45,266 nucleotides of DNA from an uncultured Gemmatimonadales bacterium (GTDB lineage: Bacteria > Gemmatimonadota > Gemmatimonadetes > JACCXV01 > JAHWKZ01), in NCBI GenBank assembly GCA_947259315.1, contig CAMYLR010000004.1, forward strand, positions 1 to 45,266, given 5' to 3'. Below are positions 1-5,512 of this stretch, in pieces (positions within the stretch are counted from its first letter, which is position 1; each line of letters opens with the position of its first letter). The notes under the pieces are model-generated. The model worked only from the letters and a program-made list of their open reading frames with translations, did not search any database and had not been told where the DNA came from. The translations under genes were made by a program, and so were the position numbers.

Positions 1-60
1 GGCGAGGCCGAGGACGACCATCGCGACCAGTGTCGGGCGCAGGTAATTCATCGTTTTCAA
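1..60 (-). CDS. Secreted protein, N-terminus only (cut by window edge)
   Basis: Only the first 20 codons are inside the window, reading leftward as MKTMNYLRPTLVAMVVLGLA. A short basic start followed by a hydrophobic stretch is what a signal peptide or membrane anchor looks like, so the product is probably exported. The TTG at 60 is preferred as start because a strong Shine-Dalgarno AGGAGG lies at 73-68, 7 bases upstream; the in-frame ATG at 51 would be 16 bases away. A c-di-GMP-I riboswitch sits in the leader at 230-140, so expression should respond to c-di-GMP. The function is unknown because the rest of the gene is outside the window. Confidence 0.6.
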   Translation of the reverse strand, partial: MKTMNYLRPTLVAMVVLGLA

Positions 61-139
61 GATTGTGCCTCCTAGATCGCTCCGCTGCCTGTGGAGCTGG
101 GGGGGGCTGCCTAAGGCGAGCTGTTCATGTTCATCAGCT

Positions 140-230
140 CCAGGTAGCCCGGCTGTCCGCTGGAAACCCGCTTCCGGCTAGGACCCGTGGCTTTGCGTCC
201 TCCACTTTCGTGGAGTTTGCCCTACCCTGG
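140..230 (-). promoter_or_regulatory. Cyclic di-GMP-I (GEMM) riboswitch, leftward
   Basis: Read on the minus strand, this has the GEMM-I core in order: AGGGCAAAC, a GAAA tetraloop closing a 5-bp stem (TCCAC/GTGGA), GGACGCAAAGCCACGGGTCC, then a second hairpin and CCGGGCTACC. The ends pair as a closing stem (CCAGG-TAG with CTACCTGG, one bulged base). Aligned to the Vibrio Vc2 aptamer, the ligand-reading position G20 is G and the intercalating A47 is present. This fits c-di-GMP rather than cAMP-GMP. Downstream, GGAGCTG (142-136) overlaps the closing stem and could instead pair with CAGCTCC (99-93), a possible expression switch. No U-tract terminator is visible, so control may be at translation of the gene starting at 60. 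Confidence 0.88.
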
Positions 231-314
231 CCATCTGCTCCCCAGAGGGAGCGCTTGGCATTTGGGCAAGTCACGTACCAAACGCCGCCAACGAGGACGC
301 TTTCACGCGGAACG

Positions 315-332
315 ACGGAAGGCGGCTTCCAC
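315..332 (-). promoter_or_regulatory. Palindromic box A (GTGGAAGC-N4-TTCCGT)
   Basis: On the minus strand the sequence is GTGGAAGC CGCC TTCCGT, a GGAA-N6-TTCC palindrome with the same left flank as the other three boxes in this window. It lies about 85 bases upstream of the leftward riboswitch and points the same way as that riboswitch and its gene. It is probably an operator for a dimeric regulator. The protein that binds it is not identifiable from the window. Confidence 0.55.
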
Positions 333-359
333 TCTCAGTGGTAACCGAGTTTCACGAGG

Positions 360-377
360 GTGGAAGCGTGCTTCCTA
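360..377 (+). promoter_or_regulatory. Palindromic box B (GTGGAAGC-N4-TTCCTA)
   Basis: An exact match to GTGGAAGC-N4-TTCCTA with spacer GTGC. It points rightward and lies 240 bases upstream of box C. No coding region begins close downstream, so it may be an auxiliary operator for either divergent gene, or it may drive a non-coding transcript through 400-590. Confidence 0.55.
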
Positions 378-414
378 TGGCGCCCAAAAAGCATGACGAC
401 CACTAGATGTACAG

Positions 415-478
415 GATTCTCGAGAATCGTTGCGCGGTCGGATGCTGATCCTCGGTTTCTTGCTTGGAGGCGACCGCA
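415..478 (+). other. Perfect 14-bp palindrome and 7-bp hairpin in a non-coding stretch
   Basis: GATTCTCGAGAATC at 415-428 is a perfect palindrome. Just after it GCGGTCG (434-440) can pair with CGACCGC (471-477). The segment lies between boxes B and C with no convincing coding frame on either strand. It could be an operator or a structured RNA. I see no further conserved riboswitch core here. Confidence 0.3.
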
Positions 479-599
479 CCTCATCGGATCGCAATTCGTC
501 GGGTGGAAGGCGCCTCGCCACAGAGCCGTGCATTTTGACACGACCGGAAGTTTTGAAGGTCGCCGCAAGTCGTTGATTGCGCATCAGTTTGGCTTCCAA

Positions 600-617
600 G
601 TGGAAGCGGTTTTCCTA
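600..617 (+). promoter_or_regulatory. Palindromic box C (GTGGAAGC-N4-TTCCTA)
   Basis: An exact match to GTGGAAGC-N4-TTCCTA with spacer GGTT. It ends 9 bases before the -35 element at 627, so its centre falls near -54 of the predicted transcript. That is a usual place for an activator. A second inverted repeat, GCTTCC-AAGT-GGAAGC (592-607), shares its right arm with the box. Confidence 0.6.
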
Positions 618-626
618 ACAAACTTC

Positions 627-657
627 TTGACTTTTAACGCCTATTGCTGTCTAATAC
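627..657 (+). promoter_or_regulatory. Predicted sigma-70-type promoter for the c-di-GMP-controlled lipoprotein
   Basis: A -35 element TTGACT (627-632) is followed after 17 bases by TCTAAT (650-655), or after 19 bases by TAATAC (652-657). Transcription would start near 662-664, just before the riboswitch aptamer that begins at 665. The placement directly downstream of box C supports it. Confidence 0.6.
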
Positions 658-664
658 GGGTGTT

Positions 665-756
665 AAACCCCATCCGATAAGGGCGATCCGGCTGGAAGGC
701 CGGGCCGCAAAGCCACGGATCTCATCGAGATGGCCGGGCTGCCGAACATGGGGGTT
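665..756 (+). promoter_or_regulatory. Cyclic di-GMP-I (GEMM) riboswitch, rightward
   Basis: The core reads AGGGCGATCC, a stem capped by GGAA (GGCT-GGAA-GGCC), then CGCAAAGCCACGGATCT, a hairpin and GGCCGGGCTGCCGA. The outer strands AACCCCAT (665-672) and ATGGGGGTT (748-756) pair with one bulge. The position equivalent to G20 of the Vc2 aptamer is G, which fits c-di-GMP. The 5' internal segment is CGATCC instead of the commoner CAAACC, so it is slightly divergent. A palindrome GTCGGCCGAC (757-766) follows, then the Shine-Dalgarno of the lipoprotein gene about 20 bases on. No intrinsic terminator is seen between aptamer and gene. Confidence 0.8.
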
Positions 757-797
757 GTCGGCCGACGACCTTCAACACTTCACTAAAGAGGCACAAC

Positions 798-1880
798 ATG
801 AATCGAACTGCACGTGCGGTCCTAGGACTTACCGTCCTGGGATGGGTTACCGTGGGCTGTTCGGATAGCTCGAATCCGGTTGGCGTTTCTGCTGCCGACC
901 GAACCACGCCGAGTGTTCTCAAGCTTGCTGCTGAAGAGACGATCGGTTTTGCGGCAATTCCCGCCGGAACCGTCGATCCAGTTATCAACGTCAATACGGG
1001 GACGGTCACGACGGCGGCGACGGGCTGCGTGGACATAGCTACCATCTATGACACTGCCGCGGCCACCGGTGTTGATCCCGACCTCGACAATCAATCGCAG
1101 CAAGGCAACGTCCTCATCGTCGAAGAGAACGATGGCGATGGCGTGTTCGTTGAGAGCCCGGACGACTGCTTCTCCGGCGGAACCCTGACGCTAGATTTCT
1201 CGGGCGTAGGTCCACTCGGCACGGTGACCCTCGAGGCGGCCAAGGTCCTCGACATCGAAGCGGCTGGTGTCAGCAAGATCGAGTTGTTCGGACCAGCCAG
1301 CGGAGGTGCGCCATTACTCTTCACCGTTTTTCTTCCGGTGACCTCGCCCCCACCCTCAGGTGATGGCGGCATCGCCACTGTGGGTCTAGGCCCGACCTCC
1401 GGGGTCGAGACGATGGTCGTGACGTTCGATACGTCAGGTGCGATCGACGACATCGAGTTCTCGCCCGATCGCGGCGGCGAAGGGTGCACGCCGGGAAGGT
1501 GGAAGAACTGGACCGGTCTCGGTCGCGGAAACCAGACCGACAACTGGTCAGCGACGGGTGTTGCTCCGCCAGGTCCAGCGGTTGGTGCCACGTTTGTGGG
1601 CGTTGTCGCAAGTCTCGCCGGGGAGAACTGGCTACAGGCCTTGCAGGGCGGCGGTGGCTCGGGCATCGAGGGCAAGCAGGAGATCCTGTTGCGGGCAGCC
1701 GTTGGGGCTCTCCTCAATGCGTTGCATCCGGACGTTGCCTATCCGCTCACGCCAGGCGAGATCATTGCGATGGTCAATGGGGCGATCGCGGCTGCGACAC
1801 CGACCGATACGAGTCCGTTGACCGACCTGGCGGACGAGCTCGACGACTTCAACAACCTCGGTTGCTCGTTAACCCGGTAG
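798..1880 (+). CDS. c-di-GMP-controlled lipoprotein with C-terminal CTPGxWKN domain
   Basis: A 360-residue exported lipoprotein: a type II signal peptide with lipobox VTVGC puts the lipidated cysteine at residue 21. Residues 30-220 are an acidic, beta-rich region with no recognised enzyme motif. From residue 229 it carries a domain I know from many bacterial secreted proteins: CTPGRWKNW (230-238), then a Trp-containing stretch, and a helical part ending in ALLNALHPDVAYPLTPGEI. That domain has no assigned activity. The ATG follows AAAGAGG at 785-791. Promoter, box C and a c-di-GMP riboswitch precede the gene and a terminator follows, so it is a single-gene unit. The regulation suggests a role at the cell surface linked to attachment or biofilm; this is inference. 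Confidence 0.85.
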   Translation: MNRTARAVLGLTVLGWVTVGCSDSSNPVGVSAADRTTPSVLKLAAEETIGFAAIPAGTVDPVINVNTGTVTTAATGCVDIATIYDTAAATGVDPDLDNQSQQGNVLIVEENDGDGVFVESPDDCFSGGTLTLDFSGVGPLGTVTLEAAKVLDIEAAGVSKIELFGPASGGAPLLFTVFLPVTSPPPSGDGGIATVGLGPTSGVETMVVTFDTSGAIDDIEFSPDRGGEGCTPGRWKNWTGLGRGNQTDNWSATGVAPPGPAVGATFVGVVASLAGENWLQALQGGGGSGIEGKQEILLRAAVGALLNALHPDVAYPLTPGEIIAMVNGAIAAATPTDTSPLTDLADELDDFNNLGCSLTR

Positions 1881-1991: not shown

Positions 1992-4553
1992 CTAGCCAGG
2001 GAGTTTCGCCTGCAGTCGCTCGAGTACCGCAAGCAGATCGGGAGAGTCTTCGAGTACGCGGCGGAAGGGGTCGCTCTTCAGTTGGGCGACGCGCCGGGGC
2101 ACCGAGCGGATCGTGTAGCGATGAATGTCCAGACCCTTCTTGATCTCGCTCCACTTGAGTGGCGTCGACACTGGCGCTCCGTCGATCGGCCGCACGCTGA
2201 ACGGCGCCACCAGCAGCTGGCCGCGACGGTTCTGTAGGTAGTCCAAGTATACCTTGCCCTCGCGGTCGGCGATCGTACGCGTCAGCGTCGTAATCTCGGG
2301 GAGGCGGGCGACGACGACCTGGGACAACAGCTCACCCAGCGCTCGCGACATGGCGTAGTCGAAGCGACCATCAAGCGGCACCAAGACGTGGAGACCGGTC
2401 GATCCGCTCGTCTTGATATATGTCGGCAGCTCGATCTCCTTGCAGAGCTGGTGGATAGCCCTGGCGACTTCGATCACATTCTCAAACGGGGCATCCTTGG
2501 GATCGAGATCGAGGATGCACCAGTCGGGGTGGTCGAGCGACTCGACCCGGCTGGCCCAAATGTGGAGCGGGATCGTTGCCATGTTGGCCAGGTAGAGCAG
2601 CGTCGCCAGATCGTCGCACACCACATACGCAAGCTCGCGCTCGGAGTGCTCGCTCCAGATCGGGACCGTACGGATCCAATCCGGAACAAAGCCCGGGGTG
2701 TTCTTCTGATAAAACGAGTTGCCCTCGATCCCGTCTGGGAAACGGGTCAAGACCAACGGTCGGTCGCGAAGGTAGGGAAGCAAGGCCGGGGCGATCTTGC
2801 GGTAGTATTCGAACAAGTCGCGCTTCGTATACCCATCGGCAGGCCAGAAAACTTTATCGGGATTCGACAGCCGGACTTCGGCGGCGGCCGGTTGTTCGAC
2901 TCCACGGCTTGCGGATTCAGATTCTCGGACCGAATCGGCTGGGCGGGGCGGCTGATCTTCGTCGACCCACGGCAGCTCGCATTCGGTGGGCTGCTTGTCA
3001 TCGCGCAAACGCAGGAACGCTGGTTGTCGAAGCAAGCCCTCCTCGGTCGCCTCGAGATACCGGACCTCGCACACCAGATCGGGCTCGACCCAACGGTGGC
3101 TAGCCCCGGTCGGTGTCGCTCCTGCGAGGAGTGGGGTCTCGCGCTGGCGTTCATCGAGCGTCTCGCGCAGGGAACGGAGTTGCGCGTTGCTGAACCCGGT
3201 CCCGACCCGACCCGCATAACGCAACTCGTCATCTCGGTAGCCACCGAGGTGCAACGCGCCGAGCCCGGAGCGTGATCCCTTGGGCAACGTGTATCCGACG
3301 ATCACGAAATCAGCGGTGTGATCGGCGCGGACCTTGATCCAGTCACCCGATCGAGCGCCCCGGTAACGGCTGTCCCCTTTCTTGCCGACGACGCCTTCGA
3401 GTCCCAGACCGACGACCTGGTGATAGAGGTCCTCGCCTTTATCGTCGAAATGCTCGACGTAACGGAGCGGTCCGGTGGGGGGGAGAACTGTCTGAAGGAG
3501 TTCTTTTCTCTCGGTCAGCGGGAGCGATCTCAGGTCGTGACCCAGCGCGCTCAGGATATCGAAGGCGTAGAAAGTCGTCGGCTGATGCCTTGAACCACGC
3601 TCGATGTCGATCGCTCGTGTCAGCTGCGCACGTTTCTGAAGTCGCTGAAAGCTGGGCAGTCCGGCATCGTCATGGGCGACGACCTCGCCATCTAGTACCA
3701 GCTCGTCGTAGGGTAGCGCAGCGATCGCCGCTGCCAGCTCGGGGAAGCTCGGCGTGGCGTCATTTCCGTTCCGGGTTATCAGCTCGACGCCGGAGGCCGA
3801 CTTACCGGCCAGCATTCGGTAGCCGTCAAGCTTGAGCTCGAAGATCCACCCCGGCCTGGAGAACGGTTCTCGACGCGACCGGGCCAGCATCATCTTGACT
3901 GTCGATGCGCGTAAGGCGCGTCGGGGCGCACCGAGCTCCTCCACGCGTCGTTTGAGGTCCACGCCGGGATCATACTCGTCACCGAGCTGCTCGACCGTGA
4001 GCCCCGAGTGGACCGACTCCGGGGGCAGGTCGTCTACGCCTCCGGGGTCGTCCGTCCCTCGTTGGGCGTACTTCTTTTCACGGATCATCAACCACTCGTT
4101 GTCGCTCTTCTTGAGCTTTACCAGCGTCCACACGCCGCGCAGCTTGTAGCCGCGGAGCTCGAACAAGAGCTTGCCCGTTTCGAGTCCCTCGATCGGGTCT
4201 TCCAGCGGACGCCAGGTTCCAAGATCCCAGACGATCATCGCGCCGGCGCCATAACTGCCGGCGGGAATCACGTTCTCGAAGTTGATGTACTCGATGGGGT
4301 GATCTTCGACGTGCACGGCGAGACGTTTGTCGGCCGGGTCCAACGATGGACCTTTGGGAACGGCCCACGATTTGAGAACGCCGCCCATTTCGAGTCGCAG
4401 GTCGTAGTGCAATCTCCGGGCGGCGTGCTTGTGAACGACAAACCCTCCACCAGCCAGATGGCGGTCGGGTGTCGAGGCTCGCCCCGCCGGCTCGGGCGTC
4501 TTCGCGGCCGTCCGCTTGGCGCGGTACTCACCTAGAGGATCGCGTTTTGGCAC
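1992..4553 (-). CDS. ligD: Multifunctional NHEJ DNA ligase LigD
   Basis: An 853-residue end-processing and sealing enzyme for non-homologous end joining, with the three domains in Pseudomonas-like order. Residues about 35-185 are the 3'-phosphoesterase domain (HKHAARRLHYDLRLE at 41-55, HVEDHP at 81-86). Residues about 215-520 are the ATP-dependent ligase, with nucleophile Lys241 in ELKLDGYR. From about 555 comes the primase-polymerase domain, with the DLDPKD metal motif and SGSTGLHV. All catalytic motifs look intact. The start is GTG at 4553. The gene diverges from ku across about 100 bases; an AT-rich TATAAG just upstream of the GTG may be its -10. LigD is recruited to breaks by Ku. Confidence 0.95.
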   Translation of the reverse strand: MPKRDPLGEYRAKRTAAKTPEPAGRASTPDRHLAGGGFVVHKHAARRLHYDLRLEMGGVLKSWAVPKGPSLDPADKRLAVHVEDHPIEYINFENVIPAGSYGAGAMIVWDLGTWRPLEDPIEGLETGKLLFELRGYKLRGVWTLVKLKKSDNEWLMIREKKYAQRGTDDPGGVDDLPPESVHSGLTVEQLGDEYDPGVDLKRRVEELGAPRRALRASTVKMMLARSRREPFSRPGWIFELKLDGYRMLAGKSASGVELITRNGNDATPSFPELAAAIAALPYDELVLDGEVVAHDDAGLPSFQRLQKRAQLTRAIDIERGSRHQPTTFYAFDILSALGHDLRSLPLTERKELLQTVLPPTGPLRYVEHFDDKGEDLYHQVVGLGLEGVVGKKGDSRYRGARSGDWIKVRADHTADFVIVGYTLPKGSRSGLGALHLGGYRDDELRYAGRVGTGFSNAQLRSLRETLDERQRETPLLAGATPTGASHRWVEPDLVCEVRYLEATEEGLLRQPAFLRLRDDKQPTECELPWVDEDQPPRPADSVRESESASRGVEQPAAAEVRLSNPDKVFWPADGYTKRDLFEYYRKIAPALLPYLRDRPLVLTRFPDGIEGNSFYQKNTPGFVPDWIRTVPIWSEHSERELAYVVCDDLATLLYLANMATIPLHIWASRVESLDHPDWCILDLDPKDAPFENVIEVARAIHQLCKEIELPTYIKTSGSTGLHVLVPLDGRFDYAMSRALGELLSQVVVARLPEITTLTRTIADREGKVYLDYLQNRRGQLLVAPFSVRPIDGAPVSTPLKWSEIKKGLDIHRYTIRSVPRRVAQLKSDPFRRVLEDSPDLLAVLERLQAKLPG

Positions 4554-4654
4554 GGCCCTAGCTTATATTCTTGTGTTCCATCCTTCACGAGTCACAGCTC
4601 CGGGTGCGTGTCGACCACCCAAGCTGGCGGACGATCAACCAGGAGGAATCGCAT

Positions 4655-5512
4655 ATGGCGGCGCGCCCCATGGGATCGGCAACTATTTCGTTCGGGTTGG
4701 TTTCTGTGCCGGTCAAGCTCTACTCGACCTCGGAAAGCTCTCGCCGAATCGCTTTCAACTGGATTCACGCCGAGTGCAATTCGCGCGTCCAGCAGCGCTT
4801 CTGGTGCCCGGTGGACGAACAGATCGTCGAGCGAGATGAGCTCATGAAGGGCTATGAGTTTGCCAAGGATCAGTATGTGCTCTTCTCACCGGAGGAGCTC
4901 AAGGTGCTCGATGCGCAGGCGACCAACAGCATCGATATCGCCGAGTTCGTTCCGCTCGACAAGGTCGAACGGCTATACCTCGATCGGGCGTACTATCTGG
5001 GTCCCGAAGGTGGGGGCGAGCGGGCCTATCGGCTGCTGAGCGCGACGCTTCGGGAGACCGGCCGCGCGGCCCTCGGGAGCTACGCTGCTCGTGGCAAGCA
5101 ATATCTGGTCCTGGTACGGCCGATCGAAGATGGACTCGTGATGGAGCAACTTCGGTACGCGGACGAGATCCGCCCGTTCTCCGAGGTCCCGATCGGTGAC
5201 GGCGAGGTGAAGAAGGAAGAGATGAAGCTAGCCGTTCAATTGGTCGAGCAGGGATCGAACGACGAGTACGATCCAAAGCAGTATACGGACGAGGTGTACG
5301 GACGGGTGATGGCGCTGATCGAGCAGAAGATCGAGGGTGAGGAGATTACCGCCGCCCCAGAGCCCAAGACAGACACCAAGATCATCGACCTCATGGATGC
5401 CTTGAAGGCCAGCCTCTCCGAGCCCGAGAAGCCGCAAAAGAAGGCCCGCAAATCGGCCAAGCGAACGGCGAGTCGGAAGAAGACCAAAGCACGTAAGTCG
5501 AGTCGAGGTTGA
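4655..5512 (+). CDS. ku: Ku DNA end-binding protein
   Basis: A 285-residue bacterial Ku, which as a homodimer threads onto broken DNA ends and recruits LigD. The N-terminus MAARPMGSATISFGLVSVP and the VKLYS segment are the family hallmark, and the core beta-barrel region continues without breaks. The last 30 residues are a Lys/Arg-rich tail (KKARKSAKRT and on), typical of Ku proteins and thought to bind DNA. The ATG at 4655 has AGGAGG 8 bases upstream; an in-frame ATG at 4571 has no such site and would add a non-family extension. The stop overlaps the TTG start of the next gene by 4 bases, so ku is translationally linked to a regulator and, through it, to kynA. Confidence 0.95.
   Translation: MAARPMGSATISFGLVSVPVKLYSTSESSRRIAFNWIHAECNSRVQQRFWCPVDEQIVERDELMKGYEFAKDQYVLFSPEELKVLDAQATNSIDIAEFVPLDKVERLYLDRAYYLGPEGGGERAYRLLSATLRETGRAALGSYAARGKQYLVLVRPIEDGLVMEQLRYADEIRPFSEVPIGDGEVKKEEMKLAVQLVEQGSNDEYDPKQYTDEVYGRVMALIEQKIEGEEITAAPEPKTDTKIIDLMDALKASLSEPEKPQKKARKSAKRTASRKKTKARKSSRG

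Follow-up and report, generated by a model that had tools for sequence, protein, structure and literature searches.

We identified two c-di-GMP-I (GEMM-I) aptamers lying back to back near one end of a Gemmatimonadota contig. The reading that we favor, with a probability of roughly 0.8, is that they belong to two independent riboswitches in the 5' leaders of divergent genes, each with its own promoter (probably sigma-54 on the left and probably of the sigma-70 type on the right), in which c-di-GMP would stabilize P1 and thereby alter the pairing of the leader and the expression of the gene. Ligand binding, promoter use and the switch mechanism are what we infer from the sequence. The riboswitches belong to a known class, and what is uncommon is how these known parts are arranged; the pair is not a new mechanism. 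The stretch analyzed, called the window below, takes up bases 1 to 45,266 of contig C4, which is 210,191 bases long and belongs to a genome of 2.4 Mb that is 96% complete. The PurL encoded by this genome has its best match in a Gemmatimonadota MAG (84%), followed by other Gemmatimonadetes. The features of the window are as follows, in window coordinates.

1..60, minus strand: 5' part of the left gene with TTG (60-58) as start codon, MKTMNYLRPTLVAMVVLGLA, signal-peptide-like, cut by the contig end
68..73, minus strand: AGGAGG, Shine-Dalgarno sequence of the left gene, 7 nt before the TTG (from sequence)
139..230, minus strand: c-di-GMP-I aptamer of the long type, 92 nt, AAA/GAC internal loop, GAAA tetraloop
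237..252, minus strand: stable hairpin GCUCCC-UCUG-GGGAGC, close to where the left leader is predicted to begin (from sequence and MFE fold)
265..280, minus strand: sigma-54-like promoter TGGTACGTGACTTGCC (-24/-12), its end separated from the left aptamer by about 35 nt
317-330 and 362-375: GGAA-N6-TTCC dyads, 37-95 bp upstream of the sigma-54 element, candidate activator sites
602-615 and 162-175: further copies of GGAA-N6-TTCC
627..655, plus strand: sigma-70-like promoter TTGACT-17-TCTAAT, upstream of the right aptamer
673..747, plus strand: c-di-GMP-I aptamer of the short type, 75 nt, GAU/GCC internal loop, GGAA tetraloop
748..756, plus strand: AUGGGGGUU, predicted from folds either to extend P1 through AACCCCAU at 666-673 or to form part of the hairpin at 749-774
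749..774, plus strand: strong hairpin without a U-run, 3' of the right aptamer, candidate expression platform (from MFE fold)
786..791, plus strand: AAGAGG, Shine-Dalgarno sequence of the right gene, 6 nt before the ATG (from sequence)
798..1880, plus strand: right gene (ORF), lipoprotein of 360 aa with one CTPGRWKN motif (codons at positions 1485-1508)

Both aptamers belong to the c-di-GMP-I class

The earlier note had proposed two c-di-GMP-I aptamers here, to be checked by a covariance-model search. In this search, the left aptamer (230-139, minus strand) scores 67.7 bits (E 5e-14) and the right one (673-747, plus strand) 61.6 bits (E 3e-12) with the Rfam family RF03167, and they score 63.9 and 60.4 bits, respectively, with the parent family RF01051. 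Both therefore lie above the gathering scores of both models (59 bits for RF03167 and 35 bits for RF01051), and the proposal holds. The core GCAAAGCCACGG, also pointed out in that note, occurs exactly twice in the 45-kb window, once in each aptamer (0.01 expected). The P2 tetraloop has the GNRA form in both (GAAA on the left, GGAA on the right), and its docking into P3 is predicted.

Positions are numbered after Vc2, and we placed this numbering on the Rfam models by way of the Vc2 structure. The pocket equivalents of G20, A47 and C92 are kept in the left and the right aptamer according to the Rfam alignments and our aptamer parse, which bears out the further claim that both have G at the ligand-reading position. 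A47 is found in all 84 cleanly parsed aptamers of the phylum. The best Rfam label, c-di-GMP-I-GGC, was rejected as a ligand call since both window aptamers keep A47, where the RF03167 consensus has G; we infer that 'GGC' in the family name refers to positions 20, 47 and 92. With G20, A47 and C92 kept, the pocket is that of an ordinary c-di-GMP-I aptamer. In the internal loop between P1b and P2, the 5' strand, a conserved AAA in RF01051, reads AAA in the left aptamer and GAU in the right one; as AAA is missing in 35 of the 84 clean phylum aptamers, its absence does not separate the right aptamer from RF01051.

An A at position 20 is the mark of cAMP-GMP (GEMM-Ib) aptamers, and both window aptamers have G there. 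A20 occurs in 19 of the 84 clean phylum aptamers, and the window genome itself has a c-di-GMP-I aptamer of this kind (G000:C11:7232-7342; L008:1501-1611). G20 is reported to act as a selectivity factor and not a hard filter (PMC9262584), hence it is not decisive alone, and c-di-GMP is the probable ligand of both aptamers. As G20 alone does not settle the ligand, and as the right aptamer has GAU/GCC with GGAA where the left one has AAA/GAC with GAAA, the two might differ in ligand or threshold through the loop and tetraloop changes of the right one, one sensing c-di-GMP and the other cAMP-GMP or another level of c-di-GMP. We consider such a difference rather unlikely, however, since G20, A47 and C92 are kept in both, the changes lie outside the pocket and fit a widespread subtype (next section), and neither aptamer belongs to the A20 type that does exist in the genome (C11:7232). 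Three full GGDEF domains and one partial domain are encoded in the genome, so c-di-GMP is probably made in this host. Should affinity differ between the subtypes, the two neighboring aptamers would offer a natural test, side by side, of how loop and tetraloop set the threshold.

The two aptamers represent a long and a short subtype

Our subtype statistics rest on the 84 cleanly parsed phylum aptamers, leaving out 19 unparsed loci and about 10 misparsed ones. Among long aptamers (>82 nt), 45 of 47 have AAA on the 5' side, the internal loop being AAA/GAC and the tetraloops mostly of the GAAA type, whereas AAA is missing in 33 of the 37 short aptamers (75-82 nt), which have the loops ACC/UCC, ACA/GCC or ACA/GUC and GNGA tetraloops, mostly GCGA. 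Fisher tests give p values of about 1e-16 for length versus loop and 2e-13 for loop versus tetraloop, which overstate independence because of the relatedness among the sequences and because some of the aptamers were sampled for their short length. When 18 short-type aptamers are aligned without gaps, 94.2% of the cells are paired and changes on both sides are seen in 10 of the 22 pairs; the covariation score is 0.250 versus 0.110 for shuffled alignments (reached by 0 of 500 shuffles), and structures slid along the alignment are 22-40% paired, far below the modelled structure. Covariation thus supports the helices of the short subtype and of the right aptamer within it.

By hit length, the right aptamer is the sole short one among the nine of its genome. 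The earlier note had contrasted the 5' segments of the two aptamers, CAAACT and CGATCC, and suggested that affinity or kinetics may differ accordingly. The difference is real and consists of the loop change from AAA/GAC to GAU/GCC together with the first P2 pairs, but a tuning mutation is a less apt description than two structural subtypes in the 84-aptamer parse, and subtype membership appears to be the better reading of it. Since the right aptamer falls in the short subtype, the pair joins two subtypes, and judging from these sequences it does not look like a recent duplication.

The GAU/GCC combination and the GGAA tetraloop of the right aptamer are each unique among the 84, as might be expected if it were a decaying or weakly functional riboswitch. 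Yet all of its 22 modelled pairs are intact and it reaches 60-62 bits with two models, and real decay looks like the 27-bit match at C24:142242 in the same genome; we therefore regard decay as very improbable. The match mentioned (G000:C24:142242-142299; L019:1501-1558) is a truncated aptamer whose 5' half is intact, and in which the 5' strand of P3 and GCAAAGCC are missing; it lies upstream of a gene for a lipoprotein with a beta-propeller (PD40), and an intact aptamer follows about 2 kb further on. It is the tenth c-di-GMP-I match of the genome, besides nine aptamers. Across the phylum, at least one c-di-GMP-I aptamer is present in 204 of 395 Gemmatimonadota genomes.

The genes downstream of the aptamers

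Only 20 codons of the left gene are visible because base 1 of the window is the end of contig C4; the TTG at 60 is in frame with an ATG at 51. A search for the remainder of the gene with window positions 1-300 matched no other contig end, and in relatives the significant matches of this segment were to aptamers only. Thus, of the two products named in the earlier note, the CTPGxWKN lipoprotein on the right stands, with the motif CTPGRWKN, but the secreted protein on the left amounts to 20 signal-peptide-like codons.

No Pfam family was found for the 360-aa lipoprotein. Homologues of its C-terminal part occur in 7 other genomes (61 searched), and a full-length homologue was found neither in the 60 relatives nor by the genome contig scan. 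One C-terminal homologue, a CTPGYWKN lipoprotein in a genome of another family (G030), starts 38 nt after a short-type aptamer, and all three CTPG-linked aptamers found are of the short type. More generally, the short subtype is often seen before envelope lipoproteins in Gemmatimonadota. The pair adds c-di-GMP riboswitches to the picture of how envelope lipoproteins are controlled in a phylum in which regulation has received little study; in the literature searched, we found no paper naming Gemmatimonadetes, riboswitch and c-di-GMP together. Just past the lipoprotein gene (1992-5512), LigD-like and Ku-like genes, named by eye, adjoin in opposite orientation, apparently an NHEJ pair.

The two leaders appear to have promoters of different classes

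On the left, TGGTACGTGACTTGC at 280-266 fits the strict sigma-54 pattern TGGYAC-N5-TTGC, with GG at -24 and GC at -12 spaced by 10, and the looser pattern TGGYRCN5TTGC has its single match in the 45-kb window at this site (0.27 expected). Strict matches were found upstream of 4 of 95 aptamers, compared with 0.01 expected from dinucleotide shuffles. All four are in the family of the window genome and start 37-50 nt before the aptamer, namely, at the left aptamer, at L004 of this genome, at L031 of the same genus and at L038 of the same family; as L004 and L031 are probably orthologous, they amount to about three independent cases. The genome encodes one RpoN. At two of these loci, the aptamer-led gene adjoins a c-di-GMP turnover gene, which encodes a GGDEF-EAL protein (EAL by eye) at L004 (G000:C29) and an HD-domain protein with TPR repeats (HD by eye) at L038 (G003).

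On the right, TTGACW-N16-18-TNTAAT has a single match in the window and 0 in 100 shuffles, although this pattern was written after the site had been seen and is fitted to it. A standard promoter scan missed the site because its -10 element is without the A at the second position (the usual A at -11). With a sigma-54-like element on the left and a sigma-70-like element on the right, the two genes are probably transcribed by different holoenzymes. The two promoter types, like the use of CAAACT/CGATCC as a subtype mark, go beyond what had been noted before on this DNA.

GGAA-N6-TTCC occurs seven times in the window compared with 0.65 expected, and four of these copies are in the intergenic region or an aptamer; the dyads could be activator sites. 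No copy of GGNAANNNNTTNCC, a motif conjectured from L004 and L031, was found in the window. Elsewhere in this genome, two aptamers (G000:C24:144440 and 150149; L005 and L006) are directly preceded by near-identical stretches of about 50 nt (CACAGACAGCCACGTCTT..CGCACTACAGTTGAGGTAA), which probably represent a common promoter of yet another class.

We tentatively propose, at somewhat less than even odds, that the short type, with its short P3, a non-AAA loop that co-changes on both sides, a GNGA tetraloop and its frequent position before envelope lipoproteins, is an undescribed c-di-GMP-I subtype common in Gemmatimonadota, and that in one family the long subtype is coupled to sigma-54 promoters, in which case transcription would require an activator signal and expression would depend on c-di-GMP as well. 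If the coupling is true, such a leader would form a two-input gate, with an activator acting at the promoter and c-di-GMP on the RNA. These two proposals, on a short subtype found across the phylum and on its long counterpart's coupling to sigma-54, are the more interesting parts of this analysis.

Leaders and proposed switch mechanism

Both transcripts would start within the intergenic region common to the two genes, that on the left probably at the activator-dependent sigma-54 promoter and that on the right probably at the sigma-70-type promoter. Binding of c-di-GMP in the three-way junction would stabilize P1, which would change the pairing options of the downstream leader and, in turn, expression. 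On the right, the switch would most likely be between the extended P1 (666-673 with 748-756) and the hairpin at 749-774, which are mutually exclusive in the predicted folds. In these predictions, the pairing of the right Shine-Dalgarno sequence hardly changes among the free, aptamer-formed and extended-P1 folds, so the switch between extended P1 and hairpin remains a candidate. A search for intrinsic terminators found none with a U-tract in the left or the right leader, which makes translational control or Rho-dependent termination likelier than intrinsic termination; the only terminator-like element (592-607) lies upstream of the right promoter and is within chance expectation.

The divergent arrangement is uncommon

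The aptamers lie on opposite strands (230-139, minus, and 673-747, plus) and point outward, before separate genes and with 442 nt between them, in the orientation first noted. That such divergent pairs are uncommon, as had also been claimed, agrees with three surveys with coordinates, covering about 251 aptamer places in 61 genomes, in which pairs were counted by hand: neighbors within 1 kb comprise about 21 same-strand pairs and one divergent pair, that of the window, which is not clearly above the roughly 0.1 close divergent pairs expected by chance (a rough figure from aptamer pairs summed over genomes of a few thousand genes each). The literature passages searched gave no description of a divergent c-di-GMP-I pair. 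Same-strand arrangements in the surveyed genomes include two aptamers of this genome 856 nt apart, each with its own gene (G000:C32:3827 and 4683; L007 and L003), for a small lipoprotein and a GAF-domain protein, and with long P3 inserts of similar sequence, as well as two triple-tandem c-di-GMP-I arrays in one other genome (G008:C36:1983-2385 and G008:C3:4761-5163) with a spacing of about 157 nt.

One might suppose that the arrangement has been selected as a single regulatory unit, with a joint response of the two genes to c-di-GMP and with activator sites between the promoters serving both, given its rarity in the survey, the four copies of GGAA-N6-TTCC within the shared region or next to it, and two genes that both apparently encode exported proteins. 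We consider this improbable. The pair was found in no relative of the order, although the nearest genomes are incomplete (79% for that of the same genus); the 0.1 pairs expected by chance also argue against selection, and the apparently different promoter classes and aptamer subtypes point to separate origins. Two independent riboswitches thus remain our preferred reading of the pair.

Comparison with known systems

The window pair resembles c-di-GMP-I (GEMM-I) riboswitches (RF01051) in its three-way-junction fold, G20/A47/C92 pocket, GNRA tetraloop on P2, position in 5' leaders and envelope-protein targets, but differs from them in that the right aptamer has GAU/GCC instead of AAA/GAC and a short P3, and in that the two aptamers are placed back to back on separate transcripts. 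It resembles c-di-GMP-I-GGC (RF03167) in bit scores, which exceed those with RF01051 for both aptamers, but not at the A47 equivalent, as described above. Tandem c-di-GMP-I riboswitches, of which 347 doublets and 12 triplets have been reported (PMC9481103), likewise place two aptamers of the same class close together, and tandems are common in this phylum. However, tandem aptamers share one transcript and one gene, whereas each window aptamer has its own transcript and gene, and thus no pseudo-cooperativity on one output arises. For the antisense-acting c-di-GMP riboswitches, 152 of which have been reported (PMC9943018), the orientation of the aptamer relative to neighboring genes is the point of interest, as it is here, but the window aptamers are in the sense orientation, immediately upstream of their own genes.
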